64,000 nt of DNA from contig NZ_QXPZ01000006.1 in the NCBI RefSeq assembly GCF_003664595.1, forward strand, positions 1 to 64,000, given 5' to 3'. Positions within the stretch are counted from its first letter, which is position 1, and every line of letters starts with the position of its first letter. The notes beneath the pieces are model-generated. The model was given only the letters and a program-made list of their open reading frames with translations, was not told the origin of the DNA and did no database searches. Shown here piece after piece: positions 1,304 to 47,300 of the stretch. The DNA comes from Atopobacter sp. AH10. Its GTDB lineage: Bacteria; Bacillota; Bacilli; Lactobacillales; Aerococcaceae. The position numbers and the translations under genes were made by a program.

Positions 1304-1326
1304 CATAATAAAGGAAAAGGGTAGCA

Positions 1327-3463: not shown

Positions 3464-4186
3464 ATGGAAAACATAATTGAATTACATAACCTAACAAAGG
3501 TTTATAACGACGTAACAACAGTAAAATTAGAAAAAATTACAGTTAAAAGTGGTGAAATATATGGCTTTCTAGGGCCAAATGGAGCAGGAAAAACTACGAT
3601 AATGAAAATGATTTTATCATTGATTGAACCAACTACGGGAAAAATCCTAGTAAATGGGAGAGATGTAAAGAAAAATAAAGATTACCTTAGTCAAGTTGGT
3701 TCAATGATTGAAGAACCATCTTATTATCCCAATTTAACTGGTTACGAAAATCTATTAGTATTTCAAAAAATGATTGGTTTTAGTGAAGGTAATATTTGGC
3801 CAACTTTAGAATTAGTAGGACTAACTGAAGAAAAAAATAGAAAGAAATTGGTTAGGGATTATTCTTTGGGGATGAAACAAAGACTTGCATTAGCGTTTGC
3901 GTTAGTTAAAGAACCAAAAATTTTACTTTTAGATGAACCAACAAATGGTCTCGATCCATCCGGCATTCATGAAATTCGTGAATTAATTGTTAGATTGGCA
4001 AAAGTAAAAGGGCTAACAGTATTTATTTCCAGTCACATCCTAACAGAAATAGAACATATAGCTGATAGGGTAGGAATTATAAACAAAGGCCATCTTGTTT
4101 ATGAGGGAAAAATAGAGAGTATAAAATCTAGTAATTGGATAGAAATAGGTGGAAATTTCTATCAAAATAATATTGGCGGATTTTAG
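3464..4186 (+). pseudogene. LanF-type immunity ABC ATPase, 3' end fused to inverted repeat
   Basis: 240 residues of an ABC ATPase of the multidrug/bacitracin type used as LanF immunity subunits. Walker A is GPNGAGKT at 37-44, the signature is YSLGMKQRL and Walker B is ILLLDEPTNGLDP. The N-terminal ATPase core is complete. The last residues (IGGF and stop) are encoded by the right inverted repeat, so the native C-terminus is lost. The membrane partners LanE/LanG that should follow are missing. It might still fold as an ATPase, but without a permease it is unlikely to confer immunity. The position after lanT supports the lanthipeptide assignment. Confidence 0.8.
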
Positions 4187-30600: not shown

Positions 30601-30837
30601 TTTGAAATTGTCAACGAGTACATTCCTACCACCCCACCGGAAGTTCCAGAGATCCCTGGCAAACCAGAAAAACCAGAAAAACCTGGCAAACCAGAAAAAC
30701 CTGGCAAACCAGAAAAACCAGAAACTCCAACGCTTCCGCAAACCGGTGAAGGATCGGTAACTGCGCTCTACCTATTAGCAAGCCTCAGCTTTATACTTGC
30801 TGCTGGTTTAATCACTAGCAAAGGCTACAAAGAATAG
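21673..30837 (+). CDS. Giant LPxTG wall-anchored protein with five Cna-B-like repeats
   Basis: 3054 residues from ATG 21673, chosen because AAAGGAGGTGCATC precedes it; an upstream ATG at 21640 lacks an RBS. Signal peptide at about 1-30 without a YSIRK motif. Residues about 140-185 contain three 15-residue repeats (SESADEPEGRSELSK type, 45 bp). Next comes a helical region (to about 430), then a very large central part rich in 'DKEGK', 'DxxGN' beta-hairpin motifs that I cannot assign. It includes a Cys-containing segment 'VYCGVGIGHCITETGG' near residue 1835. Five Cna-B-type domains of about 100-130 residues start near 2461, 2592, 2694, 2794 and 2895 ('VKAKKAWVNG', 'ANKTWIGG', 'EATKKWIGG'). A Pro-Gly-Lys linker and LPQTGEG (about 3021), a hydrophobic helix and a short basic tail form the sortase signal. 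Probably an adhesin; ligand unknown. Confidence 0.9.
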   Translation: MKFNMLKSKLSLMLFLTMATSLMTPSVADTSEKVIGRLSQSTQQLDKVSEPAGGTKTEQDQSPVSKTEAEMITPMKDPLELDEASGALSKSEQEEGLGESKASKTPDSLPAEKSHKEDDGSTDRSNSQADSGSLQVKKENEESEPADEPEGRSDLSKSESADEPEGRSELSKSESTDEPEGRENDPAVESESSTDRSSKSVRLDISDTAKEVYNTYYKADPSGMKKEEQRYFKNALAHLKKLLDKPLNSEQYQKDLALAVQRLQAFELQNAGQKKKTQAPQVETLRNLVQAVNQADKLGRLNAQETEDANKLILAAQSLLEEKQPDLSQLKQMIDQMKALQASIPRARTSKESQDLLPAISQANQLLSEKLAETSKVPDKVKDDYQKVRQALENAIKQAETLADVKKQAPSDEVIVKSLTTLGQAKKAYQDFIQAHDSHMLSDYTEGDQDQEFNSYVNQGGLPSERLKENHYYVTNNTPIDLTLQLVSNKATGPVTLVVDVRGEQGQKVQINGLNVPGLTNQKIEKRSDGSTRVKLYYDNLGARFMTSQIVFNLLNGDFHDQVTLTAKLYRGNGFEADLTEVLAEKELQFTVTKSAYDKHPGVGPNANFGKPGSGEYSNPFAPGEDSYGQDAPNQENPLDAGHVDSNGKVLDDKHTKTIDFINRLIKDSQFKDKPLVAGPADPIQLNHIRVEVTIPESMGKKAKHILNKEGINYQEKDGKLFLELDLKQLEGKSIYQSNGQLYVGGQAIGGFNKVTDVLFTDHQGKLVYLDSEGKRHYVEEQDYLALGDSDYRMLPGNTTSIYDKEGKLVAKLIGDYLVDPKGNHLKLEDNQFKITKEKNRYRLIGDKLISFDQVYRPLDDNMYVTKDKEGKTVLVPNTQKLKGKYLHSDGKQFYGRILPQTDQGYVADREGKILDKAEWKTLAVFDTTGKYLGQATADGKGYVYKDFRIEKIGERWVVKDKDGKPSTYRFALAVGVDQDGYEIDQARHLTGDTILVDKNNRLIKSFTLTKQKDGSYVLTEVVDKDQKPRTIKVETGKGIQIGDGTIYVASGNRIVAKPELDSKNYLLDEAGQLIKKATEGLSEIAGKFFSKVKELFELKEKKAQQVDGKDMDLSDKKRLKGQPDQWVKDPDGKILIYDAQTGKVYDQTGALLHSRQGGQFIVQTLADGSKKIIPGDNLYELLLKTKLSFKFPGFKTGNAVHHIYQTEWEATYHDPATGKDESVFEGGSFKTFHTFRLKSFVMPNAFNKLPPKELDGQTKMDFELFNLLYRHEGDRKRSHFLIKYMTQELIKRTEANPSIEDKDQAIGEIKATFKTLTGRDYDSYILKTIEENKARDLLAKYEKLTGKALTLNDQGDLDVPRELIWTLNFNNQNTRFSYPDEYDKQLVFHDSHMDNRLVYKDLIFKAPQKDLDGFAIQAFKAGRRFERPNHYFGIDEIDRILLGVHPYIKRADFIGVETIKGEDILAEYKKVLNGGSSDWLFIDSETGLVRVRLMHHFYKDGESPVIEEFLKQFGKLKKIFNPEDNTTASMKALEEAMAKANIAGAPKQSPCFHEIVMHMKDRVQKSKLSEAEAVKQLKKDLTAYLESVMLGDNKLSPFNRFNGFFNAFQIFFKKGISVPAAKSKQVLVTSVIKPNVDVPYTDEYGQLLTNRGILLQQALRKLYQAGKEEFDETKLKKAGLSFKKKKLADLSDAELRQLYDYLAKQVPDDKVKALVEKADPDKSVYGFLAKKGSDLALEDLMDSNKKALESNGKLLNPNYIWHATQKQYVQVESILGKDSDRSKARINLIGYYLHKAGYNRAFFGNAGSEYLLGRSEEINPFKPGYSWTNVYCGVGIGHCITETGGEPGQEGDPAKAGDHNFSLNKTQVTITYTPEAPTSDNHNKIVKKTLTPGRVKPNDRVDFEMGLGLDMLDLKTKEENGKLEKLNKDWKVDDKERQKYGTNGKGYYLLKDGYIFEVLPKEVEYDDQSRVKVITHWQHLRYFNPITNEYDNANAKRFADEAARKAFENGVKYFYVSDFSLYYASLADNNPLKALMEKAGIHTLKGHGLIVQLPEFEVPNFQGKGADLFTLQVKGLKVKQTVWGQKTNKVKFSSTPWIGGSESNFTVGEGKTQANKYVRWYVPSDYDKRYGYTGSASEWHQGTAKLDFGQRYDYKLEYTYQTLDTGRLGVGTDMRNLVLTDKLPQKGGNNGLTPYLVGRVKVENGAGAQFLIEYKLGDKWLTDPDDWKLVTEIRISQKLGMGGIKAGDTVSFIIPMQVPSLTLKVDENGKPVFKDGKPEYENLDRFNFDKLFAENQFESNDNKTSNKVNIELDKTTFMHFYKIWQKEKRKQDGSFEVETEPNNQYHVPLQIDIIQTAKNELDKKAKATEKTHTRVYLNYNNRWNGSISGLPTEYKAYQILTDKDGNVTKTLIKHLTYTYRVVENANSLNGYAPVEKVQKVDLKNGNSGLGTGYIFRNILNLTQVKAEKKWEKGDKVRPGSLSLQLLQDGKAYGSPKAQSYLHYTWSDLPVYQMDEKTGLVKRDDKGNFIRYQYTVVELNSDGSIVAWIVQDPKKPAEGQEGIYHNGDHQFALTLKGNMYDGFTLSNKYIVPDREVKAKKAWVNGSKVRPSGKVYFKLWRKIGEKGQATPMVGLKAIGNADQEVTWKKLDKTDDQGNEYIYFVTEVDQNGKELKLTDFTKKEDGLTITNTYQIPKTNVTANKTWIGGEKFRQKVYFKLYRKIGKDGQEEAVGELKEVGTSNASVTWNDLDKTDDQGNVYSYFVKEVDEKGNDFVPKYFSKLEKDLTVTNTYVSPKIEIEATKKWIGGQAVRPQVYFKLYRKVGESGQAEAVGQVKAVGTADQEVVTWTDLDKTDADGQDFIYFVQEVDQAGNEFVPEHFKKAEDGLTVTNTFEVPRTAIEVRKIWQGGPDTHPTITIHLLRDGQVVDSIQLANGQLTYRWTDLALTDLSGRSYEYTIKEDAVNNYQSKISGNATDGFEIVNEYIPTTPPEVPEIPGKPEKPEKPGKPEKPGKPEKPETPTLPQTGEGSVTALYLLASLSFILAAGLITSKGYKE

Positions 30838-33013: not shown

Positions 33014-34718
33014 CTATTTCATGAGAAGATACGCCATGAGTGAAAAGGGAGCCAAGAATCTCAAAAAAGCTATTCTCTCCCGTACTTTACTCAATTTAAC
33101 CAAACTTTGCCCTCCTTTTATAGCTTTTGTCTTTATTGGGCAATATTTAGAAAGCGACTATGGCTTATCATTAAATTTAGCGACCTACATCTCTTGTATT
33201 GCCGTGATGTTCGTCCTCATGTTTTTAGTGGCACGGTTTAATTATCGACATCTCTATATCAATGTTTATGAAGAGAGTGCGAATTCACGTATTGAAATGG
33301 CTAACCGTTTAAAAAAGTTGCCCCTCTCTTACTTTGACAAGCATTCGGCTTCTGATTTAGCGACGAGCATGATGTCGGATATTGGGACTTATGAGGAAAT
33401 TTTCTCGCATGCTGTCCCACATATTTATGCTACAGCCTTATCGACTTGCCTGATTTTCTTGATGTTATTCCTGTATAATTGGCGGTTAGCTGTATCGGCG
33501 ATATGGGTGATTCCAGTTTCCTTGCTCTTCTTTAACCTATCTAAGTTTTTACGGACAAAGGCAAATGATAGCTTTGTGAAAAATAATAGGCAAGTTATTG
33601 ATGTCATGCAAGAAAATATCGAACAAATACAAGAAATCAAGGCGTATTCTTTTGAAAAAGAAAGAGCCGATCAATTTAGTAATGTTGTTAATTCTAATAC
33701 GAAGGCCAAGATAAATGCTGAAATGGCTAGTGGGGCAACTCTTTCGATAGCCGTTATGCTATTAAGATTAGGCATTGTGAGTGTGGCTCTTGTTGGAGCT
33801 AATTTATTACAAGAGAAACAAGTTGATATGTTTACTTATGTCATTTTCCTCGTGATGACTGCTAGTATTTATTTACCAGTCCAAAATATTCTCAGTTTTA
33901 TGGGGATGATTGATATGCTGGATAGTGTGGTCAAACGCATAAAGGAAATTAAAACTTTGCCTATACAAGAAGGCTCCCAAAGTTTAGAAGTTCAGAATTA
34001 TGATATTGAATTCAATCATGTTGTTTTTGGCTACGAGGATTATTCAGTGATTAATGATGTCAGCTTCCTGGCTAAACAGGGAGAGGTGACGGCTTTAATT
34101 GGCCCATCTGGAAGTGGGAAAACAACATTGGCTAAGTTAGCGGCTCGCTTCTGGGATATTCAGCAGGGTAAAATTTTACTCGGGGGTGTTGATATTCATC
34201 AGGTTGATCCGGAAGTTTTGCTGAAAAATTTCTCTATTGTCTTTCAAGATGTCATCTTGTTTAATACCAGCATCAAGGAAAATATCAAGATAGGGAAAAA
34301 AGGAGCGACGGATGAAGAAATTTGGCAAGCGGCTAAGGTCGCTCGCTGCACAGAGTTTATTGAAGAGTTGCCTGAGGGGATAGATACAGTCATTGGGGAA
34401 AATGGGCAAAAACTATCTGGTGGTGAACGTCAACGTATTTCTATTGCTAGAGCCATTCTTAAGGATGCACCGATTATCCTTTTAGATGAGGCAACAGCTT
34501 CTTTGGATGTGGAAAATGAAAGCTTGATTCAAGCTGCTTTGTCGGATTTAGTCAAGGAAAAGACTGTTCTCATTATTGCTCATCGATTGCGAACGATTAG
34601 AAATGCTGACAAGATTATCTTATTGCAAGAGGGTAAGGTGGTCGCTAGTGGCACGGATAAAGAACTGATGGCAAGTTCAGAAGACTATCGTCAAATGCTT
34701 GAAGCTAGTTTGTCTTGA
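33006..34718 (+). CDS. ABC transmembrane ATPase, YbtQ-like half
   Basis: 570 residues, exporter fold. 'LKKLPLSYFDKHSASDLATS' is the coupling helix region; ATPase elements are GPSGSGKTT, LSGGERQR, IILLDEATASLDVENE and IAHRLRTIR. It overlaps the previous gene by eight bases with RBS AGGAGGGAAAA, so the two are translated together and should form a heterodimer. Two intact ATPase sites are predicted. Likely substrate: an iron-siderophore complex; multidrug export is the alternative. Confidence 0.85.
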   Translation: MINYFMRRYAMSEKGAKNLKKAILSRTLLNLTKLCPPFIAFVFIGQYLESDYGLSLNLATYISCIAVMFVLMFLVARFNYRHLYINVYEESANSRIEMANRLKKLPLSYFDKHSASDLATSMMSDIGTYEEIFSHAVPHIYATALSTCLIFLMLFLYNWRLAVSAIWVIPVSLLFFNLSKFLRTKANDSFVKNNRQVIDVMQENIEQIQEIKAYSFEKERADQFSNVVNSNTKAKINAEMASGATLSIAVMLLRLGIVSVALVGANLLQEKQVDMFTYVIFLVMTASIYLPVQNILSFMGMIDMLDSVVKRIKEIKTLPIQEGSQSLEVQNYDIEFNHVVFGYEDYSVINDVSFLAKQGEVTALIGPSGSGKTTLAKLAARFWDIQQGKILLGGVDIHQVDPEVLLKNFSIVFQDVILFNTSIKENIKIGKKGATDEEIWQAAKVARCTEFIEELPEGIDTVIGENGQKLSGGERQRISIARAILKDAPIILLDEATASLDVENESLIQAALSDLVKEKTVLIIAHRLRTIRNADKIILLQEGKVVASGTDKELMASSEDYRQMLEASLS

Positions 34719-34798
34719 GTGATTGAATGACCTGTGACAGTTCGGAACTAGAGCATGTGAGTTCGTTTGCCATCTAGCTCTCTTATAAGATAATAGAA

Positions 34799-34836
34799 AG
34801 AAGCTAAGTCATAAATCCTGCTTAGCTTCTTTTTTA
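34799..34836 (+). terminator. Terminator of the iron-type ABC operon
   Basis: AGAAGCTAAG pairs with CTTAGCTTCT, followed by T6. About 80 bp after the stop codon. Confidence 0.85.
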
Positions 34837-34952
34837 CTTTTAAAATATCAAGTCATTAGAAAGTGAATAGGCCTAAAACACCTCATTCTACCCGCATTAG
34901 CCTGCAAGTAAATTTAGTGAGTAGCCTGCTTCTTTTACGTAAAAGTTACTTG

Positions 34953-35360
34953 AAGGAATAAGGGATTTAATATTCAAGTCTATACTGAAGATTTTAATAA
35001 TGATTATATTAGCCTCACAGATATAGCCAGATACAAAAACAAGGAAGAGCCTAATGTCGTTGTAGCTAATTGGATGAGGAATTATAATACGATTGAATAT
35101 TTAGGGATATGGGAGCAGTTAAATAATCCAAATTTTAACCCCCTCGAATTCGAGGGGTATTTACAAGAAGCAGCTAGTAATGCTTTTACTTTATCCCCAC
35201 AAAAGTGGCAAAAAACAACCAACGCTATTGGGATATTTGTTAAAGGATTTGACCAAGGATCAATTGTCGTTTAAGTATGCCAGTGAAGCTGATATGTTAA
35301 ATGTGGCATTATTTAATATAAGACCTTCTTCGATAAGAGAAAATATTTTATTGTCATGAA
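34953..35360 (+). pseudogene. KilA-N domain protein relic with internal deletion
   Basis: The frame lacks a start (a stop lies a few codons upstream) and reads YISLTDIARYKNKEEPNVVV, ANWMRNYNTIEYLGIWEQLN and ALS-type LSPQKWQKTTNAIGI, the KilA-N DNA-binding domain. It then runs out of frame. In the next frame LKDLTKDQLSFKYASEADML and NVALFNIR match the C-terminal part of the same family. The stretch between (roughly 60-80 residues) is deleted. KilA-N proteins are phage or plasmid borne, so this marks a former mobile element. Confidence 0.75.
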
Positions 35361-35378
35361 TATGATTTATAGTAGGTC

Positions 35379-35407
35379 TTGACATTGTTCTAGAAAAGGT
35401 TTAAATT
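35379..35407 (+). promoter_or_regulatory. Promoter of the first T-box leader
   Basis: TTGACA (35379-35384), 17-bp spacer, TAAATT (35402-35407), about 35 bp upstream of stem I of the T-box. Confidence 0.65.
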
Positions 35408-35444
35408 AATCATCAATATAAACATTTCTTGTTTTCATAACAAA

Positions 35445-35717
35445 ACACGTAGAAGAGAAGAGTAGTTATGGAGAAGTCTTAAAGAGAGCCCGCTTGCTGA
35501 GAAAGGGTAGACATTCAAAGTAATGAAGATGAGCTCTGAGTGATTGGTTGGTTTACGCTAACCAAACGGATGCAGCCGATACCCTGCCAAGCCTCATGAG
35601 GAAGACTCCTCTTGGCGCTGTTGAGGCACTCATAACTTAAATGAGTGTAAATTTGGGTGGTACCACGGAGATTCTTCGTCCCTTTGCAGATTTGCAAGGG
35701 GCTTTTTTTTTTTTTTT
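35445..35717 (+). promoter_or_regulatory. T-box leader 1 (specifier unresolved), apparently orphaned
   Basis: Stem I carries the loop E pair AGTA (near 35460) and GAA, the AGAGAG element and a GAGCTCTGAG closing arm. The T-box core GGGTGGTACCACG lies at 35655-35667, followed by a terminator CCCTTTGCA/TTGCAAGGG and T15. After GAA the sequence is GATGAG, so the specifier could be GAT (Asp) or ATG (Met); the alignment with the Trp T-box at 40245 favours ATG slightly. No aminoacyl-tRNA synthetase or amino-acid gene follows directly. The next complete gene, a cyclase, starts 234 bp later. Confidence 0.85.
35680..35717 (+). terminator. T-box 1 terminator with a T15 tract
   Basis: CCCTTTGCA pairs with TTGCAAGGG. 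The exceptionally long run of 15 T could also slip during replication. Confidence 0.8.
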
Positions 35718-35950
35718 GTTAGAAAAATGAAATGAATTGGAGGAGGGATAGCATTAAGGGAGAATATACAAGGATCATTGATATAAAAAGCAAAAGAGGT
35801 AAGGGAATAGTTTTATTAAGACAAGCTTTAACAGATAAGAACTGTAGGAAAACTCGACAACATATAGGGCTATCCTTTTCGACCTGCAGTAGTTTTTTTA
35901 TCGAACGCTAGTACCATTATTCATTTCAAATAAGAAAGGAAGTTTTTTTC
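35718..35950 (+). other. Segment between T-box 1 and the cyclase gene
   Basis: After a good RBS (TTGGAGGAGGGATAGC, about 35738-35753) an open frame without a normal start (ATTAAGGGAGAA) runs for some 50 codons (IVLLRQALTDKNCRKTRQHI and following). It may be a fragment of the gene originally controlled by the T-box. I do not recognise the protein. A second RBS (AAGAAAGGAAG) serves the cyclase. Confidence 0.35.
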
Positions 35951-36691
35951 ATGACACAAGCATCTATTGATATTTTAACAGCTAAACGTATTGATTTAAC
36001 ACACGCCATTCACTCCGAAATCCCACATTTTCACGCCTTTGACCCTCTAAAAGAAAAGACGCTCTATACGATTGAAAAAGACGGATTCTTGGCGAAAGAA
36101 TACACACTCCCAACGGCTTACTCTACCCATATTGATACACCAGGGCATTTTTCAAAAGGCAAACGTCTTTTAGAGAAGATCAGTTTAGAAGAGCTAATCC
36201 TTCCTTTATATGTCCTTCATTTGGAGGAAGAAGTCGCTAAAAACCCAGATTTCGGGGTAGATAAAGCGACTATTCTTGCCTATGAAAAAGAGCATGGGGA
36301 AATCCCATCTGGCTCATTCGTTGCTTTTTCTAGTGGCTGGTCGGAGAAGTTTTCAGACCCAAAAGCTTACTATAATATTGACGAAAAAGGCATAGCTCAT
36401 ACACCAGGTTGGACGGTGGAGGCATTGGAATTCTTAGCACATGAACGTCAAGTAAAAGCAATCGGCCATGAAACTTTAGACACAGATCCTGGGATTATTT
36501 ATCATAAAACCCAAGCTTTAGATGGTGAATTTTACTGGTTAGATCAAGACCGCTATCAAGTGGAAGTCTTAAATAATTTAAGGGCTGTTCCAACCAAAGG
36601 GGCAGTGATAGTGGTAGCTCCCGCTAAAGTCGTCCAAGCCCCAAGTTTTCCCGCCAGAGTATTTGCGCTTGTTCCAGAAACAGTTCAGTAA
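35951..36691 (+). CDS. Cyclase-family metal hydrolase (kynurenine-formamidase-like)
   Basis: 246 residues. The cyclase-family metal site is visible: HIDTPGHF with His60, Asp62 and His66, and later 'AIGHETLDTD' with His and Glu contributing to the active site. The length is normal for the family (KynB and related amidohydrolases, about 210-270). These enzymes hydrolyse N-formylkynurenine, cyclic amides or related compounds; specificity cannot be read from sequence. RBS AAGAAAGGAAG. Its last ~285 bp are duplicated at 37564-37848. Whether T-box 1, 234 bp upstream, controls it is uncertain. Confidence 0.85.
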   Translation: MTQASIDILTAKRIDLTHAIHSEIPHFHAFDPLKEKTLYTIEKDGFLAKEYTLPTAYSTHIDTPGHFSKGKRLLEKISLEELILPLYVLHLEEEVAKNPDFGVDKATILAYEKEHGEIPSGSFVAFSSGWSEKFSDPKAYYNIDEKGIAHTPGWTVEALEFLAHERQVKAIGHETLDTDPGIIYHKTQALDGEFYWLDQDRYQVEVLNNLRAVPTKGAVIVVAPAKVVQAPSFPARVFALVPETVQ

Positions 36692-36856
36692 TTAAGTAAG
36701 TAAGATGAAAAATAGTTCCAAGAGGATTAGATCTATTAGCAAAATGATGTGGATAGTTATCCTAGCAATATAGTTAAACCTTTAACAAAGGTTGTTAAAC
36801 ATAGGATAATTTATTGTAAAAAATTAAAGAGATAATGGCGATAAAGGGAGAAGTAA

Positions 36857-37270
36857 ATGAAAAAACAATTTTGCTTAAGGAGCATAATGATAAATATTTT
36901 GCTAGTAGGATTGATTGGATATGGCTATTATAATTTAAAATCAAATTCTGTATATTATGCAAAAAAAACACCTCATAAGGAAGGCACCGAGCCAGTACTG
37001 ATGATGCTAGTTGACAACTTAGCTTGGATATATAAACCAGAAATAAAAGAAATAAAGTATGAAGGTGAGGGAAAATCTACAATAAAAATATATAGTGATA
37101 AGAAAAACCAGGCAGGTTTTCTAACGACAGCAAATAAAAACGGGAAAAAAGGATATTTATTTGATAACATAAAAGCAAGGACAATAGTTGAATTTGACAG
37201 CGGGTTTAATGCTATAAAAATGTATAATACTTCAGAATCCATACAGGAAATAGATTTTACAAAAAAATGA
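36857..37270 (+). CDS. Small membrane-anchored or secreted protein, unknown
   Basis: 137 residues. RBS AAGGGAGAAGTAA. A basic start (MKKQFCLRS) and hydrophobic helix (INILLVGLIGYGYYN) form a signal anchor; the remainder is a hydrophilic, probably exported beta-rich domain (PEIKEIKYEGEGKSTIKIYS, then GFLTTANKNGKKGYLF). No family recognised. It sits between the cyclase gene and its truncated copy, so it may have arrived with the rearrangement. Confidence 0.6.
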   Translation: MKKQFCLRSIMINILLVGLIGYGYYNLKSNSVYYAKKTPHKEGTEPVLMMLVDNLAWIYKPEIKEIKYEGEGKSTIKIYSDKKNQAGFLTTANKNGKKGYLFDNIKARTIVEFDSGFNAIKMYNTSESIQEIDFTKK

Positions 37271-37563
37271 AGGGGAAGAATATAAAAACACTCTATATAG
37301 TATGTTAAAACCGGTGATTGATGTCCAAACAAAACCATTAATAAATTTGCAATGGTTTTTTGACAGAGTTTATCATGACAAATTTAATGAATAAATTTGA
37401 ATGAGTCACAGGAACGCACAGGAGTCTAGTAATAAGTATCTTTAGCGGCTTTTTATTTCTTGGCATGGGTACATTTGGCATAGTCAGTGGGCATAATGTA
37501 ATTTAATCAAAAAGGACTAGGATGTGGTGACTACAGCTACCAATTCTAGTCTTTTTTTCATAA
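37271..37563 (+). other. Segment with hydrophobic ORF fragment and terminator
   Basis: A start-less frame at about 37404-37506 reads SLVISIFSGFLFLGMGTFGI and ends SGHNVI, a lone membrane helix perhaps left from a transporter gene. A terminator-like hairpin (AAGGACTAG ... CTAGTCTTTTTTT) spans 37509-37558. No complete gene. Confidence 0.45.
37509..37558 (+). terminator. Terminator before the cyclase duplicate
   Basis: AAAGGACTAG and GGT arms pair with ACC and CTAGTCTTT, followed by T7; the stem contains small bulges. Confidence 0.6.
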
Positions 37564-37848
37564 GGTTGGACGGTGGAGGCATTGGAATTCTTAGCTCATG
37601 AACGTCAAGTAAAAACAATCGGCAATGAAACTTTAGATACAGATTCTGGGATTATTTATCATGAAACCCAAGCTTTAGATGGTGAATTTTACTGGTTAGA
37701 TCAAGATTGCTATCAAGTGGAAGTCTTAAATAATTTAAGGGCGGTTCCAACCAAAGGGGCAGTGATAGTGGTAGCTCTAGCTAAAGGCGTCCAAGCACCA
37801 AGTTTTCCAGCCAGAGTATTTGCGCTTGTTCCAGTAACAGTTCAGTAA
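37564..37848 (+). pseudogene. Duplicated 3' third of the cyclase gene
   Basis: Nucleotides 37564-37854 repeat 36410-36697 with about 95% identity by eye. The frame covers the last ~94 residues only. Several changes hit functional positions: GHETLDTD has become GNETLDTD, losing the conserved His. There is no start codon with RBS, and the metal-binding HxDxPxHF half is missing. It is a recombination product, not a gene. Confidence 0.9.
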
Positions 37849-37876
37849 TTAAGGAGGATGGAAAAATAAACGATAA

Positions 37877-37911
37877 TTGACATCTTTTTTTTTTTTTTTT
37901 GCGAGTATAAT
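37877..37911 (+). promoter_or_regulatory. Promoter with T16 tract in the spacer
   Basis: TTGACA (37877-37882) and TATAAT (37906-37911) are both perfect consensus boxes, but 23 bp apart. The spacer contains an uninterrupted run of 16 T. Loss of about six T would give the optimal 17-bp spacing, so slippage could switch expression of the downstream cassette. Confidence 0.7.
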
Positions 37912-37943
37912 AATATTTAGTTTTGAAGAGGGGAGGGTTAGTG

Positions 37944-38018
37944 ATGATTAAAAAAGTCACAAAAGTAGCATCAAGTAAAGACACTCCGGTTATTTGTCAC
38001 TATGACCAAAATTGCTAG
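37944..38018 (+). CDS. 24-residue peptide with two cysteines, candidate exported peptide
   Basis: ATG at 37944 after GAAGAGGGGAGGGTTAGTG. The peptide starts MIKKVTKVASSKDTP and ends VICHYDQNC, with Cys18 and a C-terminal Cys24. A basic N-terminal half and a Cys-tailed C-terminus resemble a short precursor or signalling peptide. It is the first frame after a strong promoter in a cassette ending with an ABC exporter. No family is recognised; it may also be merely a regulatory leader. Confidence 0.5.
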   Translation: MIKKVTKVASSKDTPVICHYDQNC

Positions 38019-38093
38019 TTTATCAACTATAGAGAAGCCTCGTATTGATGATATATTCGATAACCAGGCTTTCTATAATAAGGAGGCTATTCG

Positions 38094-38279
38094 ATGTATT
38101 ATCAACTGAAACCATTTCTTCGTGTATTATATAATAAAGAAACTAATATTGTTCGAAGCGGAGAAAGTAAATTGTTAAATCAGACGGTTGTTATCAATTT
38201 AAGCGACCTTACTTTGCATTGGAATAACTTTAGGAAAAAGGAAGACTGTCCAGTCTGTGGTGATCATTATGATAAATAG
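38094..38279 (+). CDS. 61-residue protein resembling the C-terminus of an E1-like (ThiF/MoeB) enzyme
   Basis: ATG 38094 with RBS AAGGAGGCTATTCG. The C-terminal part, NQTVVINLSDLTLHWNNF and RKKEDCPVCGDHYDK, matches the end of ThiF/MoeB-type E1 enzymes, where a beta-strand 'YDAL--RFR---LRKDPDCPVCG' carries the second CxxC zinc pair. The adenylation domain is missing, so this is either a remnant of a peptide-modifying E1 or a free-standing zinc protein. It overlaps the exporter start by 14 bases. Confidence 0.5.
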   Translation: MYYQLKPFLRVLYNKETNIVRSGESKLLNQTVVINLSDLTLHWNNFRKKEDCPVCGDHYDK

Positions 38280-39870
38280 AGTATGGAGTAAGCCAAAATA
38301 TCTATTAATGTCTATTGTACTTGTTTTAGCGTCTCTAGATGGGGTGGTAATTGCCGATTTATTTAAAAATTTAATCGAACTTACCCACCAAGCAAATGAG
38401 AAAGCATTTTTGGCCTTAATTGAAAAGATACTCATAGTTTATGCGCTTGTTGGTATATCTAATTATGTGTATAATCTCATGAAATATCGATTTGCTTTTG
38501 ATGCTAATCTTTTTTTGAAGGAAAAAATCGTTCGGCATTTTTTGGTACAGCCTTTTGATCCTGAAACACAAGCCAATATCAAAAAAGAAACACTGTCTTT
38601 TATGTTGAATGACATGAAATTATTAGAAACAAATTATCTTTTCCCATTCTTTGACTTTTATTTGTATATCTCTTATGCAACTACAGCTTTTATCTATAGT
38701 CTCTTACTTGATCCGGTATTGGCACTTGTGTTTTTAGCTTTTTCATTAGTTCCCTCTATAGTGCCAATGATCTTTAAAAAGCCATTGGCCAAGAAAACAG
38801 ATCACTGGACTGATTGCAACCAAGATTATACGGAAAGAATGAATGAAACTGTTGAGGGAGCAGAAGAGATCAAAGAATTTCATCAAGAAGAAGTCTTTCT
38901 CAGTCGAATGATGAAAACTATTTTAGGCAGCGAAAAAGCCTTTTTGGATTTGCATAATCTACAATCCTTATCGCTATTTAGTGTGGGCACCATTTCCGTT
39001 CTATGTTGTGTATTACCTTTAGCTATTGGAGGGTTTTGGGTCATTCATCAACAGGCTAGTCTGGCTAATTTAGTAGCTGTATTTTTTGCTTCCGATCGCA
39101 TCATTACACCGCTTAAATTATCGATTAATATTTATAATCAATTTAATTCAGTTAAGACCATAAGAGGTAAACTGGAAAGGATTATAAAAGCTGATGAGCA
39201 ATTGCCTGAGAAAGAACAAGCAGCTTTACAGGGGATTTTGATTAAAGAAGGCAAGATGGTTCTTAAAGATCAGCTGATTCTCCAAGATATCAATATGGAA
39301 TTAAAGCCCTATGATAAAGTTTTAGTTGTCGGGGAAAGTGGGGCTGGAAAGAGCGTTTTATTGAATCTTATTCGAGGCAATTTATCGCTTACTGATGGAG
39401 AATATAAGCGACAACCAGAAGATGCCAATCTTCTTTTGGGCTATCAAAAGGATTGTGTTTTCAAGGATTCTTTGAATTTTAATATTTTCTTTTCAGATAA
39501 AAAGATAGATGAAAAGCTAAAAAATGTCTTTGATATTCAAGATCAATTCCCTCATACTATTGCCTATCAAGGGGAAAATATATCCGGTGGGCAAGCTAAG
39601 CGTATCAATCTGGCTAGGCTCGTTAATCATGGGGAAAATTTGTTATTGGATGAACCTTTTCAAGGTTTAAGTAGTAAACAGTCTGAAAGGATAGAAAGTT
39701 ATTTACTCCATCAGACCCATCTTTTGGTCTTAACGAGTCATATTCTTCATGAAGAAAACTTACCTCTTTATTCCATGTTTATCGTTGTTGAAAATAAGAA
39801 AGTTCATATTTATCGGGATTTAGCTACATTTAAACAAAGTAGTTATTATCAGAGAAACCACTTGGCTTGA
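38266..39870 (+). CDS. ABC exporter (fused membrane and ATPase domains)
   Basis: 534 residues from ATG 38266; an in-frame GTG at 38257 lies inside the previous gene. Six membrane helices cover about residues 10-290. The ATPase has Walker A GESGAGKSV, signature ISGGQAKRINLARL, Walker B NLLLDEPFQGLSS and switch His in LVLTSHIL. Compared with usual exporters the ATPase domain is short and its Q-loop region (NLLLGYQKDCVFKDSLNFNI) diverged. No C39 peptidase. It closes the small-peptide cassette and is the natural candidate to export the 24-residue peptide. Confidence 0.85.
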   Translation: MMINRVWSKPKYLLMSIVLVLASLDGVVIADLFKNLIELTHQANEKAFLALIEKILIVYALVGISNYVYNLMKYRFAFDANLFLKEKIVRHFLVQPFDPETQANIKKETLSFMLNDMKLLETNYLFPFFDFYLYISYATTAFIYSLLLDPVLALVFLAFSLVPSIVPMIFKKPLAKKTDHWTDCNQDYTERMNETVEGAEEIKEFHQEEVFLSRMMKTILGSEKAFLDLHNLQSLSLFSVGTISVLCCVLPLAIGGFWVIHQQASLANLVAVFFASDRIITPLKLSINIYNQFNSVKTIRGKLERIIKADEQLPEKEQAALQGILIKEGKMVLKDQLILQDINMELKPYDKVLVVGESGAGKSVLLNLIRGNLSLTDGEYKRQPEDANLLLGYQKDCVFKDSLNFNIFFSDKKIDEKLKNVFDIQDQFPHTIAYQGENISGGQAKRINLARLVNHGENLLLDEPFQGLSSKQSERIESYLLHQTHLLVLTSHILHEENLPLYSMFIVVENKKVHIYRDLATFKQSSYYQRNHLA

Positions 39871-39978
39871 AAATCTGAGAGATTTGTAGCTTGAGATGAA
39901 GAGAGGATGGGACTGGCAAGATTCTAAGGTTAGTAGGAATCTATTTTCTCTAGCTCTACTATATCTTATTAGCTTAAA

Positions 39979-40118
39979 CGGATAGTCAATCGTGTGCGAT
40001 AACAACTGACTACTATAGGCGAATGGGATATCCTACAATAAAAAGTCGCGGATAGTCAATTGTGTGCGATAACAACTGACTAGTCTAGGTGAATGGGATA
40101 TCCTACAATAAAAAGTCT
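39979..40118. repeat. Tandem duplication of a 70-bp unit containing a hairpin
   Basis: Units 39979-40048 and 40049-40118 are about 90% identical (GGATAGTCAAT-GTGTGCGAT, then AACAACTGACTA and GAATGGGATATCCTAC). Each contains the imperfect inverted repeat AGTCAATTGT...AACAACTGACT and the palindrome GGATATCC. Confidence 0.85.
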
Positions 40119-40185
40119 AGGGAAAAGGATGGGCTCAACTTGAAATAGGATGTAAAAAGCAAAGTGAGATAAGTTGAAATAGCTA

Positions 40186-40214
40186 TTGACTTTAAATAAA
40201 TAGGGTGTTAAAAT
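40186..40214 (+). promoter_or_regulatory. Promoter of the trpEG T-box transcript
   Basis: TTGACT (40186-40191), 17-bp spacer, TAAAAT (40209-40214), about 30 bp before stem I. Confidence 0.75.
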
Positions 40215-40244
40215 TCTAAACAAATTTAATAAGATATATTAAAC

Positions 40245-40528
40245 CGATGAAGCGGAGATAAAAATAATTATGCCTATACAGAGAGTCTAAGTGGCTGAGA
40301 TTAGACTAGAAACAGATTATTAAATGGACCGCTGAGGGCGCAGTGAAAAGTTTTTCTGAGTATTCTGCGACGTGTGCATACGTCAGTTGCTAGGGGTATG
40401 TTAGTACCCTGATAGAGAGGATGGTAGGATCTCTGAAGGAGATTCGTTTTACCATCAAAACAAGGTGGCACCACGAATATGGCTTATTCGTCCTTGACAG
40501 ATAGTTTGTCTGTCAGGGACTTTTTTTA
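40245..40528 (+). promoter_or_regulatory. Tryptophan T-box leader (specifier UGG)
   Basis: Stem I starts GATGAAGCGGAG and closes with CCGCTGAGGGCG; its specifier is TGG at 40325-40327 followed by the usual A. The AGAGAG element lies at about 40279. The T-box core AGGTGGCACCACG is at 40463-40475, then a terminator GTCCTTGACAGA/TCTGTCAGGGAC with T7 (40489-40528). Uncharged tRNA-Trp would stabilise the antiterminator and switch on trpE and trpG. Confidence 0.92.
40489..40528 (+). terminator. Terminator of the Trp T-box
   Basis: GTCCTTGACAGA and TCTGTCAGGGAC form a strong stem with a short loop, followed by T7. Confidence 0.88.
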
Positions 40529-40562
40529 TGCAGGAATGGTTGGAAATTAAAGGAGGGTAAAA

Positions 40563-42026
40563 ATGAATATTTCGCATACGATTGAAGAAATAAGAAGTAT
40601 ATGTAAAAGGGGGAATTTTGATGTCTTCCCCCTATCAATGGAAGTGGTAGGAGATTGCACGACACCGATAAAACTTCTTAAAACGCTAAAAAAGCATTCT
40701 AAAAAGGCTTATCTGTTAGAATCTGTTACTAAAAATAATATTTGGGCGAGATATTCCTTCCTTGGTTATCGTCCTAAACTTGAAATTAGTTTAAGAAATA
40801 ATCTGATGCAGATAGGTGAAAAAACGATTGAAACAAATGATCCTAATGCAGAATTAAGGCGAATACTGCAAGACTATAAAGCCCCAAAACTTGAAGAACT
40901 CCCACCATTTACTGGGGGCTTGGTCGGTTATTTTTCCTTCGATTATTACAAGTATGCCGAAAATACCGTCATTAGGGATGTGTCGGATGACTATCAATTC
41001 AAGGATTTAGAATTGATGTTGTTTGACAAGGTGATAGCCTTTGATCATTATCGCAATAAAATTATTATAATCATTAATGTATCACTGAAAGACCTTGAGA
41101 CTTCCTATAATCAAGCGATAGAGGAATTTAAAGAGATCAGAGACTTGTTAGTTAAAAATGAAGAAGTCGTTGATAATGGCCATATTATAGGGCAATGGAA
41201 AAGTTTATTTCAGAAAAAAGAATTTTGCCAGATGGTTGAGAAAGCCAAAAAATATATATACGAAGGTGATATTTTCCAAGTTGTCCTATCGAATGTGCTC
41301 TATGCAGGTTTCAAGGGTTCTCTTGTAAATGCTTATCGGAAATTAAGAAGTATTAATCCGTCGCCCTATATGTTTTATTTTTGCGGGACGGATATTGAAA
41401 TTGCCGGAGCCAGTCCAGAAACTTTAGTGAAGTTAGTGGACGATAAACTCTATACTTTCCCATTGGCTGGGACGAGGCCGAGAGGGAAAAATGACAAAGA
41501 GGATGAGGCTTTGATAAAAGATTTATTGAGCGATGAGAAAGAAATTGCTGAACATAATATGTTGGTGGATCTTGGACGAAATGATTTAGGGAAGATATGC
41601 CAATTTGGCACGGTGAAAGTCGATAAGCTGCATACCATAGAGAAATTTTCACATGTGATGCACATTGGTTCTGTGGTTAGTGGGAGAATTGACGACCAAT
41701 ATGATGGCTTGGATGCCATAAGTGCAGTTTTACCAGCGGGGACTTTGTCAGGTGCTCCTAAAATTCGAGCCTGCCAGATTATATCTGAACTGGAAGGAGA
41801 CAAAAGAGGCCTCTATGGTGGGGCGATTGGCTATCTGGATTTTTCTGGGAACATGCAAACTTGTATCGGCATACGGATCATTTTCAAAAAGAATGGGACA
41901 GTATTTGTGAGAAGTGGTGCTGGAATAGTCTACGATTCCAAGCCAGAAAAAGAATACCAAGAGTGTATTAATAAAGCAAAATCATCAGTTAAAGCATTGG
42001 AAGATCTTGAGGAATTTGAAAAATGA
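40563..42026 (+). CDS. trpE: Anthranilate synthase component I
   Basis: 487 residues, normal for TrpE. The N-terminal feedback motif LLES (residues 51-54) that binds inhibitory Trp is intact. The chorismate-binding domain has 'ASPETLVKL', 'PLAGTRPRG', 'EHNMLVDLGRNDLG', 'HVMHIGSVVSG', 'LPAGTLSGAPKIRA' and 'GGAIGYLDFSG'. It forms anthranilate from chorismate using ammonia supplied by the amidotransferase encoded next (four-base overlap). RBS AAAGGAGGGTAAAA. Regulation by a Trp T-box supports TrpE over PabB. The rest of the trp pathway does not follow. Confidence 0.95.
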   Translation: MNISHTIEEIRSICKRGNFDVFPLSMEVVGDCTTPIKLLKTLKKHSKKAYLLESVTKNNIWARYSFLGYRPKLEISLRNNLMQIGEKTIETNDPNAELRRILQDYKAPKLEELPPFTGGLVGYFSFDYYKYAENTVIRDVSDDYQFKDLELMLFDKVIAFDHYRNKIIIIINVSLKDLETSYNQAIEEFKEIRDLLVKNEEVVDNGHIIGQWKSLFQKKEFCQMVEKAKKYIYEGDIFQVVLSNVLYAGFKGSLVNAYRKLRSINPSPYMFYFCGTDIEIAGASPETLVKLVDDKLYTFPLAGTRPRGKNDKEDEALIKDLLSDEKEIAEHNMLVDLGRNDLGKICQFGTVKVDKLHTIEKFSHVMHIGSVVSGRIDDQYDGLDAISAVLPAGTLSGAPKIRACQIISELEGDKRGLYGGAIGYLDFSGNMQTCIGIRIIFKKNGTVFVRSGAGIVYDSKPEKEYQECINKAKSSVKALEDLEEFEK

Positions 42027-42598
42027 TATTAATGATAGATAATTACGATTCATTCGCCTATAATTTATACCAATTAATTGGAAAATATGAAAATGATATT
42101 AAAGTCATCAGAAATGATGAATTGACACTAGAAGAAGTGGAAAAACTTCATCCAGACAAGATTATTATTTCTCCAGGGCCAGGGAAATGTGAGGACGCTG
42201 GAATTATCGTAGATTTGATCAAGACATTAGGATATCAAATACCTATTTTAGGGGTTTGTCTAGGTCACCAAGCTATTTGTCAAGCTTTCGGTGGAGAGAT
42301 TACCTATGCGAAAAGATTAATGCATGGGAAAGTTTCTACCATCAAAATTGACAAGCAAGCTACTTTATTTAAGGGTTTGCCGAGTGAAATAAAGGTAGCT
42401 AGATATCATTCACTAGCTGCAGATAGAAAAAGTCTGCCGAGTGAATTACGGGTGATTGCTTCTGCGGAAGATGGCGAAATCATGGCTGTGGAGCATAATA
42501 GCCTCCCTATTTATGGCCTACAATTTCATCCGGAATCTATTATGACGCCTTGTGGGGAAGAGATTATTCAGAATTTTTTAGGAAAGATGCCTGAATAG
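42023..42598 (+). CDS. trpG: Anthranilate synthase component II (glutamine amidotransferase)
   Basis: 191 residues, class I amidotransferase. 'MIDNYDSFAYNLYQLIG', oxyanion 'SPGPGKCEDAG', nucleophile Cys79 in GVCLGHQAIC, and His169/Glu171 in LQFHPES complete the triad. It overlaps trpE by ATGA. It channels ammonia to TrpE; like other TrpG/PabA proteins it could also serve p-aminobenzoate synthesis. It is the last gene before a terminator. Confidence 0.94.
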   Translation: MILMIDNYDSFAYNLYQLIGKYENDIKVIRNDELTLEEVEKLHPDKIIISPGPGKCEDAGIIVDLIKTLGYQIPILGVCLGHQAICQAFGGEITYAKRLMHGKVSTIKIDKQATLFKGLPSEIKVARYHSLAADRKSLPSELRVIASAEDGEIMAVEHNSLPIYGLQFHPESIMTPCGEEIIQNFLGKMPE

Positions 42599-43291
42599 TT
42601 TCGTCGTTATAGGGGGAGAGGAATAGAATAAGCTATTGTAAGTTTTGCCTTATAGCTAGTTACAATCTATGGGTAGGACGAGCAATAGCTTTTTTTACCG
42701 TATTTTTTTGACAATTGCTCGGAAAGTTGATGAGCAAGATGACTGACAGTGTAAAATTTCTTGTGTAAGCTCCAAACAACCATAGAAAAAGGGCCTGCCT
42801 TTTGTAAGATTGTTGAAATATTGTAGAGTTACAGTAAATATAGCTCATAATATCGCCAATATTAATTTTAATACGCCAAAATCAGAATAATGGCGAAATG
42901 ATTCTTGTCATTTTTTATTTGCTGGATACATTAAATAATGCTGACAATATTTTACTGCCTTAGATTAATCGAATAGGGCGGCTGATTGAGTGATTATAGC
43001 CCTTATGTGCTTAGCGTGATAGAATGACTATAGGCATACCCTGGGATAAGGCTCACTGTTTGGATATATGATGAAAAGGCAACTGGCTATAAGCCCCCCT
43101 AGATGGTGGATGAGATATTTTGGACTTGGAATAACAAAAGTTACTGGAATGGACAATAGGAGGTGTGAATAAGTGATGATGGATTGGTGCCTTTGAGTTC
43201 GGAATGGCAGCGTAAGCGCTAACTTTTTTTGAAGATGCCAACTGAAAAGCGTGGATGTATAGTAAGAGCTATTCAAATGGGAGGTGTTTTT
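42599..43291. other. Gene-free stretch after trpG
   Basis: Contains the terminator at 42630-42697 and AT-rich sequence with no supported gene. Around 43090-43230 the sequence (GGAATAACAAAAGTTACTGG and neighbours) may be a further, strongly diverged member of the repeat family at 9548 and 12690. That assignment is weak. Confidence 0.4.
42630..42697 (+). terminator. Terminator of trpEG
   Basis: AAGCTATTG (42630-42638) pairs with CAATAGCTT (42683-42691) across a long loop, followed by T7. Confidence 0.65.
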
Positions 43292-43699
43292 ATGGAATAT
43301 GTGGCAAATCCGGATCTTGATTTCGATCAGGTGCTCCATCTTTATCAGGCCAATCAATGGACAAACTACACGACTCATCCAGAGATGCTTCGTCAGGCGA
43401 TCAGTCATTCCCTCTACATTTTAGCTTGCTTTGAAGAGGGGGAGCTTGTTGGCTTAATTCGATTAGTAGGAGACGGCTACTCCATTATTTTTATCCAAGA
43501 TATTTTGGTGTTACCCGACTATCAAGGCCAAGGGATAGGGACTCGACTAATGAAACAAGCATTAAATGAGTTCAAAGGGGTCTATCAAATTCATCTGCTG
43601 ACGGATAAGACAGAGAAGACGAAAGCTTTTTATGAAAGTTTAGGCTTTATTGAGGTGGGAGACATGGAATGTAGAGCATACAGCTATTTGCCCCATTAA
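43292..43699 (+). CDS. GNAT-family N-acetyltransferase
   Basis: 135 residues from ATG 43292, supported by GGGAGGTGTTTTT; an upstream start at 43229 would add an unlikely N-terminus. Motif A is 'IQDILVLPDYQGQGIGTRLM' with the Q-G-Q-G-I-G pyrophosphate loop; motif B is 'DKTEKTKAFYESLGF'. The size and the short N-terminus fit the small single-domain GNAT proteins common in Firmicutes. Substrate unknown. Followed by its own terminator. Confidence 0.88.
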   Translation: MEYVANPDLDFDQVLHLYQANQWTNYTTHPEMLRQAISHSLYILACFEEGELVGLIRLVGDGYSIIFIQDILVLPDYQGQGIGTRLMKQALNEFKGVYQIHLLTDKTEKTKAFYESLGFIEVGDMECRAYSYLPH

Positions 43700-43762
43700 C
43701 TGCTGGGCTGGGGATTTAGCGAGAGGGCTAGTCTAGAATATATTTTTTGAAAAATATGATGA

Positions 43763-43802
43763 GGACAAGTTATCGATTTTTTTGGTAACTTGTCTTCTTT
43801 TT
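43763..43802 (+). terminator. Terminator of the GNAT gene
   Basis: AGGACAAGTTA pairs with TAACTTGTCTT, followed by T-rich sequence. Confidence 0.8.
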
Positions 43803-44270
43803 GTGTAAGTGATTTCTTTTATAGGGAAAGTTTTTTCAACATAAGCGATAAGGTAAAGTTTACTTTTTTTCTAAAAAATAGATTCCAAATTTGGGGTTGA
43901 TTAGAAATAAAGAAAATTTACGACTTTCATTAATCTTTTTTATAGAATCTTCATCAATTAGTGGTCGTTGGAGTGTCTAAGTGATAATTTAATAGTATTT
44001 AAAACTATGAAATAAAAAATTACTTTTGTAACGAATTGTTTTCTAAAAAAAGTGACAGATGTCATTATTTAAATGGATTCTTCACAATTTAACTGTGCTT
44101 AAATGGAATGATAAGACTCTTGTTAATATGTTATTTTTGTTGTTATAATAGGAATCTTTAAGTTCTTAAGCTGTTCTTTTGATCTCTTTTTGAAAAACTA
44201 GTAGAAAGCATTTTTATTCATAACAAGGTGAAATGAACATGAAAAAAAATTGCTTTTCGATAAACGTTAC

Positions 44271-44367: not shown

Positions 44368-47300
44368 ATGGTCGGAAAGAACAATATAAAAGAACTTCGA
44401 AGAAAAAATTCTAGAAAAGTTACTCGCTACGGGATTAGACGATTGAATGTGGGGGTTGCTTCTGTAGCTGTTGGGGGCTTGCTGTTTTTATCTCAAGCAG
44501 CCATTGCTAATGTTCAAGCGGATGAAGAAGGAATCAATTCTTCCAATACGCTCAATATCAATAATGCTGATCAAGGAGCTAATGGGTTAGCCAGCAATGG
44601 CGATAAAGAACAAGCTACTGCGACTTCAGAAAAAGAAGTTAAAGAAGAGGATAAAGCTGTTCTTTCAACCGACCCTAAATCTGAAGAAAAAGACGCTTCA
44701 GTGAACGAAGAATCTGCTAGTCAACCAACTGAAAAAGAAAACGCTCCTGTAGGGACACCAGCTTTAGAAACAAGAGACTTACGACCAGTTGCTGCTACTA
44801 CTGCTGGATACTATAGTGGAGCTAATGAGGATCGTAATAATTCTTTTGACAGCTTAGCCAAAAAAATACAGGCTTCTAATGATCCGAAGTCTGTTTTAAG
44901 AAATGAATTGAAAGAAGTTTATGGAGATAAGGATGCAGAAGGTATTCTAGCTCTTGTAGATTTCCGGAAGATTGTCAATGGGACTTCTTTACAAGAAGAA
45001 GTGATGAAAGCGGGAATTGCTTTTGCCAACAGTCGTCGTTTCTTGGATAAAGTGAGCCTATATGCAACTTTTGAGGCGAATAAGGGGAAAGATGTTTCTG
45101 GGAAAATGAATCCAGTGATATCACTAAAGGTGCCAGATCCAAGGAAACCAGTTTATCCTAATTTAGGACAAAGTGTGTATTTAGATTTTACTGTTGATGT
45201 ACCTGAAGATGTTAAAGAGGGGGATTATTTTGTCATTGATTATGGCAAATTTATCCAACCAGGTGGACTTGAATTTCCGATTAACACAAGTAATTTAATC
45301 ACCAAAGAAGGGTCTGTTGTTGCAACGCCTACGTATGATGTGGAACGTAACCAAGTGGTTTATAAATTCACCAATTGGGTTAATAGCCGTGGAAATATTA
45401 AGGCATATTTGAGGGAAGCTGTCTGGCCAAAGCGTGAAGCAATTAGAGATAATAATAAAGCTTATCCTATCACAGTTACAGTAGCAGGGAAGAAGTATAC
45501 GCAAAAGATTTCCTATGATTACGGTAATAAAGATAATGGTGTGCATAAACTTTTGCATGGGCAAAGTATTTCTGTTGATCAAAGTAATCCAAATAAATAT
45601 AGATTAACTCAAGTTTGGCATATCAACCGTGATGGGAAAAAAGTGCCTAATGGTGATCATACGATATTGTTTGAATCTAAAACCGATAATTTAGAGTATA
45701 TTAAGGTGTACGAAGTTTTAGATAATAGAGCTTTTACAGATAGCGGTAGTTTAGATATCAATCCTGCCTATGTAAAAGAACTGCAACTGAACCCTTACAC
45801 AGATAAAGAAGGGGTTCGTGTGAACGTTGGCAAATATGTAGCGCAAGGGAAACGTTTTATTGTTAAAACAGTGTCAAATCCTAAAGGAAAAGCTGCTGGT
45901 TACTATAATAGTGAGATTTTTCTGTCTCTTCGAAACAAACAAAATGTATCTGAAGCTTATCAAGGTTTATATTTAGGTTATAATTTCAGCGACTCTGTAG
46001 TGACTGGAGATAAGGTTCCGGGCTTGTTTGTAGAAAAGCATCGCTACGAAGTAACTGATGAACATGGGCGTTTAATCGGTGTAGACGAGTTAGTGACTAG
46101 ATCACCGCAAACCGGTCTTAAAACTGAAAAGTATACCACCAAGCGTGAAGATCGTGAACATTACACATTTGTACGTGCTGAAAATCCAAAGAATGAACCG
46201 ACCTATTCGCCAGAGGGTAATGAAGCTAGTGGCTTCTTTAAGCCTGGTAAGACACAAGAAATTACCTATGTTTATCAACGCAAATTGAAAAACTATGAAA
46301 TGACTGTTGAAGATTCGTCTTATGAAACTAAGTATCAATTTGACAAAAACGTTAAACCAGGGGAAATCAAGGAAATTCAAAAGGGGCAAGACAAACGAGT
46401 TCGTGTGTTATATGAACATGTGAATCCTAAAGATATTCCTAACTTTAATCCAACTGACTTTAAACAAATGCGTGGCCAATTTTGGCGTGAAGTGTCTCGT
46501 GAAGTGATCCAAGAAGCCAGACCACAAATTTTCGCCTTTAACCTCAAATCTATTGTGAGAACGGATAAGAACAGTGATGGTGGGGTAACCATTATTTATA
46601 GTGACGGTGAAAAAGTCATCATTCCTGGACCAGATAAACCGAAAGAACCATTAAAACCAAATAAACCAATCGTGAAAGTAACACGTGGTGAAGGTAAACA
46701 TCCTGAAACTGGTAAAACAGTGAAGGGGAGCTGGGTTACGGTTCAAATTTATAACCCTAATACGGATCGCTTTGAAGATAGTGAAACGACAAGAACCTTT
46801 ATTCCTGATGGCTTAGATGGACAAAAAGGTGACAAGGGTGACCGAGGACCTCAAGGGCCAAAAGGTGACAAGGGTGACCAAGGCCTGAAAGGTGACAAAG
46901 GAGACCGTGGTGAAAAAGGTCAAAAAGGCGATAAAGGTGACAAGGGTGACCAAGGTTCGAATGGTAAAGATGGCAAGGATGGGTTGACGCCAGAAGTTAC
47001 CGTTAAAGATAACAAGAATGGTACACATACTGTTACTGTTCGTATGCCACATCGTGACGAAAAGACAGGCGAGATCACTTATACTGAAACCACAACCATC
47101 ATCAAAGATGGTAAAGATGGTGACAAGGGTGAAAAAGGTGACAAGGGTGATCGCGGTGAACGTGGTGAAAAAGGTGCCGACGGTCAAAACGGTAAAGACG
47201 GTAAAGATGGTAAGGACGGGAAAGACGGTCTAACACCAGAAGTAACCGTGAAAGACAACGGCAACGGCACTCACACTGTAACTGTACGTACCCCACACCG

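Follow-up and report, generated by a model that had tools for sequence, protein, structure and literature searches.

A probable decayed TLAT-RiPP operon behind a poly-T promoter spacer in Atopobacter sp. AH10

The window, by which we mean the whole stretch of 64,000 nucleotides analysed here, comes from the 2.2-Mb draft genome of Atopobacter sp. AH10 (G000, contig C55). The window carries a small cassette, flanked by a cyclase gene that has a T-box leader and by a T-box-controlled trpE, with the features below.

37563..37853, forward strand: second, incomplete copy of the cyclase (arylformamidase-like) gene's 3' end, directly preceding the cassette; 291 bp, 94.8% identical to 36406-36696
37877..37882, forward strand: -35 hexamer TTGACA, exact consensus
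37885..37900, forward strand: T16 tract within the 23-bp promoter spacer
37906..37911, forward strand: -10 hexamer TATAAT, exact consensus
37944..38018, forward strand: 24-aa putative precursor peptide, MIKKVTKVASSKDTPVICHYDQNC, with a C-terminal Cys
38029..38095, forward strand: imperfect inverted repeats between the peptide and the 61-aa ORF, weak
38094..38279, forward strand: 61-aa protein, by profile match a probable remnant of an RRE-ThiF-like adenylyltransferase (TLAT), with approximately its first 25 residues joined in frame to the last 36
38257..39870 (GTG start, or ATG at 38269), forward strand: ABC exporter, intact by its motifs and placed by clade support (100/100) among the GggC/Rgg-associated RiPP exporters

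The T-box leader before the cyclase (35441-35686) scored 92.9 bits, just below the gathering score, and its terminator tail is a T15 run at 35703-35717, 2.2 kb upstream of the T16 tract. The leader before trpE (40238-40498) scored 107.8 bits. The partial cyclase copy borders the cassette, which suggests that there was a rearrangement at the point where the cassette was inserted. Between the exporter and the trpE leader there is also a 69-bp tandem repeat (39979-40047 and 40049-40117, 94% identical).

The first-pass annotation of this DNA had described consensus -35 and -10 boxes separated by 23 bp around a T16 tract, and this is borne out at the positions given above. Using an independent-base estimate, runs of at least 16 Ts are expected about 0.03 times in the entire genome, and the joint chance that a given run has an exact TTGACA within 7 start positions and an exact TATAAT within 9 is about 2e-5. 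The poly-T spacer is genuine, and chance is an improbable source of it. A pattern search, which is the source of our T-run counts, found only four runs of at least 13 Ts in the genome. One of these is the T15 terminator tail just mentioned, which shows that this genome also forms long T runs in other ways; a second T16 run lies at 6058-6073 of contig C76, apparently between genes. The hexamer pair alone is not special, as an unrelated ORF contains another TTGACA-23-TATAAT pair, at 37194.

The usual optimum for a promoter spacer is 17 bp (16-18 bp). At 6 bp above this, the promoter is probably weak as assembled, and slippage in the tract could therefore raise its activity (a T10 tract would give 17 bp). 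The earlier suggestion that the promoter can be tuned or switched by slippage is plausible given a T16 tract between two exact hexamers, and a change in tract length would be expected to alter promoter strength. There is also a streptococcal precedent. The length of a T tract in an intergenic promoter region of S. pyogenes controls the R28 and Spy1337 transcripts, and bca of group B streptococcus likewise has a length-variable T tract in its promoter region (PMC7098570). The R28/Spy1337 case makes this kind of control credible in low-GC Gram-positives, and it is a precedent for a possible phase switch at T16. For the streptococcal tracts the effects of length on transcripts were measured, whereas what we have for the window is sequence only, with the tract directly between the -35 and -10 boxes.

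The putative precursor ORF has a Shine-Dalgarno sequence (AGAGGGGAGGG) upstream and lies directly before the 61-aa ORF with a gap of 75 nt, which is the order of a TLAT cluster, where a short precursor precedes the enzyme. The Cys-tailed peptide of 24 residues that the first reading proposed is thus present, and it is likely to be a precursor because it resembles the short ...GSC peptides beside TLATs at two loci from streptococcal-type genomes, L065 and L067. Cys-ending precursors before TLATs are MKKVAEVKSFSEKEKMGSC at L065, MNKVHERILTAQEKADSRTKVGSC and MKKINERVLTAQEKSDTTSKSGSC at L067, and a peptide ending in ...SCNNNC at L102. The peptide of the window is 37% identical to the 19-aa peptide of L065, and the L065 and L067 peptides share with it a length of 19-24 aa, a basic N-terminus (KKV/NKV/KKI) and the C-terminal Cys. 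Those precursors also sit directly before a TLAT gene. The differences are that the enzyme of L065 is full length while that of the window is a putative remnant, and that both loci have an MFS exporter where the window has an ABC exporter. The region 37912-38100, which includes the inverted repeats, folds no better than shuffled sequences (z -0.83).

For the 61-aa protein, which is preceded by a consensus AAGGAGG Shine-Dalgarno, we used a profile of length 368 made from 24 full-length TLATs collected from the order, with the window protein left out. The last 36 residues match positions 336-365 of the profile with 22.7 bits (single-sequence E 2.4e-9), and none of 2000 shuffles did as well (the best shuffle reached 6.3). 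This agrees with the first-pass annotation, which had likened the protein to the tail of ThiF/E1-like enzymes. The first 25 residues match positions 5-26 with 0.5 bits, and 24 of 2000 shuffles were as good. The N-terminal match is weak alone, but its position is exactly where the TLAT family begins. What is missing between the two matches is about 310 residues, in frame, and these hold the ATP site, most of the RRE and one zinc Cys pair. All of the invariant residues of four aligned TLATs (GxGxxG, the DxD/NLxRQ region and the first CxxC) are absent, so the ORF has no ThiF/E1 adenylation domain with ATP- and Mg-binding residues. In place of an N-terminal RRE domain it has approximately the first 25 residues of the enzyme, and of the E1 tail with CxxC(G) it keeps the second Cys pair only.

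The 61-aa ORF is best read as an internally deleted TLAT, about 310 codons short, in which the modifying enzyme appears to have been reduced by about 85% of its length. It had been taken for a working component of the cassette; we instead see the two ends of an enzyme of about 370 aa with the catalytic middle gone. In NCBIfam there are weak matches to E1-containing families of RiPP cyclodehydratase partners (TIGR03882, SagC). We rejected two other identities for the ORF. A standalone RRE (GrcE-like) does not fit because it is the E1 tail that the ORF matches strongly, and a GtgE-like protease (Pfam E 0.013, PDB GtgE E 0.04) is a local match around the Cys tail that is far weaker than the TLAT profile match. 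We found no relatives of the 61-aa protein in 395 genomes of the order, or in plasmids or phages. Weak homologues at L019, L020 and L021 are chance matches: the ones at L019 and L020 are antisense to a UvrA-like gene, and the one at L021 is within a gene that looks like one for nucleotide-sugar biosynthesis.

It is unlikely that another ThiF enzyme complements the loss in trans, because the genome has no other detectable ThiF domain. A TLAT search of the genome at 1e-12 found no match, and a PF00899 search at E<=0.01 found none, though the same search was positive in 14 of 14 control genomes.

The ABC exporter ORF, which overlaps the 61-aa ORF, has all of the expected motifs (Walker A, SGGQ, Walker B and H-loop), and we found no motif of an N-terminal C39 peptidase in it. 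A dedicated exporter within the operon is again what a TLAT cluster has. The best named family is NF050039, the streptosactin exporter GggC, which matches over nearly the whole length with an E of 1.2e-49. We do not consider it to be GggC itself, since the score is 169.9 bits against a cut-off of 750 and there is no GggB radical SAM enzyme nearby. In the tree, a placement at clade level, it falls with 100/100 support in a clade with Rgg-, LanM-, radical-SAM- and TLAT-associated exporters, including those of loci L068 and L101, and three other exporters of the window fall outside this clade. No close intact orthologue was found, the best identity for the exporter being about 30%; the plasmid and phage searches gave distant ABC matches only, and a scan of genome contigs gave just one irrelevant actinomycete locus.

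L068 and L101, from the same taxonomic order, are counterparts in gene order, both with a full-length enzyme. L068 has a divergent Rgg-type regulator, a small WYFI peptide, a 373-aa TLAT and an ABC exporter. (A candidate precursor at 3740-3832 of L068, ending in ...RTYC, does not count here as a Cys-ending example, since the published family is matched better by the WYFI peptide at 3883-3936.) At L101 there are two NWYFI peptides, a 391-aa TLAT, an M16 peptidase and an ABC exporter. Our names for neighbouring genes (Rgg, M16 peptidase, LanM, MFS and radical SAM) were read from the sequences and are not profile hits. Among the relatives, TLAT loci with Cys-terminal precursors have MFS-type exporters; TLAT loci with an ABC exporter of the same clade have WYFI-type peptides. 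A further locus is L067 (4230-4951 of G121:C23), where two Cys-ending precursors of 24 aa are followed by a TLAT without approximately its first 200 residues and by an MFS-type exporter. It is an independent decayed TLAT locus. Its TLAT is truncated and both of its precursors are kept, so the loss of the enzyme with retention of precursors seems to recur.

The comparison included one other genome of the genus and 76 genomes in the family group, counting that of the window. The genome of the same genus (G001) has neither the 61-aa protein nor the adjacent cyclase nor any close exporter, and because the cyclase and a close exporter are missing there, an empty site could not be compared.

An order of peptide, modifying-enzyme-like protein and exporter had been noted in the first pass as RiPP-like, and the same order with a full TLAT in L068 and L101 supports it. 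The accompanying statement that no system with this make-up has been described does not hold, because a peptide with a ThiF-like enzyme and a transporter is a published RiPP class (PMC12250964, PMC12150305). In these pathways, TLATs adenylate a carboxylate of the peptide and various nucleophiles then attack it; the products are the phosphoramidate of microcin C, the Glu-Cys thiolactone of GRC, the imide or amide of enterofaecin and the indolylamide of ind (PMC12250964, PMC12150305). ThiF-like and radical SAM genes are also common beside Rgg/SHP regulators in S. thermophilus (PMC13361665).

Two of the published systems are especially close. The ind (IndF; S. pneumoniae)/NWYFI group, represented among our loci by L101, likewise has a short precursor, an RRE-ThiF-like enzyme and an exporter in one operon (PMC12150305, PMC12250964), and the exporter of L101 is in the same clade as that of the window. 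It differs in having a full-length enzyme, an M16 peptidase and a WYFI end, whereas the window has a putative enzyme remnant, no peptidase and a Cys end. GRC of S. pneumoniae (the GrcA/GrcB thiolactone) likewise combines a precursor with a C-terminal Cys, a ThiF-like enzyme and a transporter. However, GrcA is 39 aa long with Glu35 and Cys39, and the GRC cluster also encodes a standalone RRE and a pair of radical SAM enzymes, which are missing from the window (PMC12250964). By inspection of the ORFs of 34000-44000, there is no radical SAM-like gene beside the cassette. The thiolactone of GRC joins an internal Glu to the C-terminal Cys, while the window peptide ends in Cys and has no Glu.

As the mark of a decayed copy, the first-pass annotation had named homologous loci in which the ThiF gene is full length and the peptides differ, and L068 and L101 are such loci. 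We therefore read the cassette as a degraded TLAT-RiPP operon, with precursor and exporter intact, just the two ends of the enzyme left, and a poly-T promoter spacer that could slip, and from its sequence and that of its relatives we put the probability of this at about 0.84. In the intact form, the short Cys-ending precursor would be bound by the RRE domain of a TLAT of about 370 aa, which would adenylate the precursor carboxylate with ATP. A nucleophile would then trap the acyl-adenylate, the C-terminal Cys possibly giving a thiolactone as in GRC, and the dedicated ABC exporter would carry the modified peptide out of the cell. The 61-aa ORF would be what remained of the enzyme, its two ends, after about 310 internal codons had been deleted in frame. 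With the catalytic middle of the TLAT deleted, the locus could presumably still make the peptide and the exporter and would no longer be able to modify the peptide, and we detected no substitute in the genome. Since no close intact orthologue was found, the deletion is deduced from distant relatives. Against decay, the frame has stayed open and neither of the two Shine-Dalgarno sites nor the exporter is damaged, so this is not an obvious pseudogene. The pairing of a Cys-ending peptide with an ABC exporter, which differs from the pairings in the relatives, also counts against our reading.

For the T16 tract, we give about even odds that it plays no part in switching: once the enzyme had been lost and the promoter was silent, slippage would have lengthened a relaxed tract. 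At 23 bp the spacer lies well outside the 16-18 bp optimum, so the promoter is likely already weak, and the longest T runs that the relatives carry upstream of their precursors are of 4-6. Both flanking hexamers are still exact consensus, though, and the R28 and Spy1337 transcripts of S. pyogenes are governed by T-tract length (PMC7098570). We consider an evolved switch no more likely than the lengthening of a relaxed tract in a locus that is decaying. Another idea, that only the enzyme was lost and the rest is under selection, with the exporter and poly-T promoter giving immunity to related modified peptides or exporting the unmodified Cys-tailed peptide as a signal, is in our view unlikely. 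The intact exporter with all ABC motifs, the good-looking translation signals of all three ORFs and the retained precursors of L067 after a similar loss of the catalytic enzyme are in its favor. Against it, many relatives have an Rgg-type cognate regulator, of which there is none near the cassette in the window, and the promoter spacing is poor as assembled.

We consider it very unlikely that T16 slippage toggles the Cys-tailed peptide and its exporter in subpopulations, from an enzyme-free cassette, with the TLAT remnant acting as a small peptide-binding chaperone or the linear peptide as a signal. Slightly less credible again is the original model, which makes the 61-aa protein the working modifier or carrier of a miniature RiPP or signalling system that functions, with T16 slippage switching the operon. 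The compact order, overlapping genes, open frames and real slippable tract would suit such a system, but a protein that matches the extreme ends of an enzyme only, with no ATP-binding residues and one of two zinc Cys pairs, would not, and the 61-aa form is not independently conserved, its three weak matches being out-of-gene or antisense chance. Just as hard to credit is an artefact of sequencing, assembly or laboratory passage, either in the deletion or in the T16 length, with a full-length TLAT in the natural strain. The genome is a draft of 77 contigs and homopolymers of 16 are difficult to size; against this, an in-frame internal loss of about 930 bp with clean flanks on a 74-kb contig is atypical of assembly errors, and the missing ThiF domain is on no separate contig.

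With the degraded operon as our preferred reading, a small ORF that keeps just the CPVCG tail of an E1 enzyme would be the trace of a gutted TLAT, which corrects its reading as a miniature enzyme. The genome, an outlying one within the order, would thereby contribute a further TLAT-RiPP locus that has decayed, one with an ABC exporter, and the relatives L065, L067, L068 and L101 make it possible to study the intact form. Should the T16 spacer turn out to vary in length, this would be homopolymer phase control of a RiPP operon, for which we know of no report.

Elsewhere in the window there are two giant LPXTG surface proteins, one of 3065 aa with repeats toward its C-terminal side (21640-30837) and one of 2780 aa with collagen-like GKDGKDG repeats (44368-52710). 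At the edge of the window (188-3399), a LanC-like protein adjoins a peptidase-type bacteriocin ABC transporter in what is apparently a lanthipeptide cluster.
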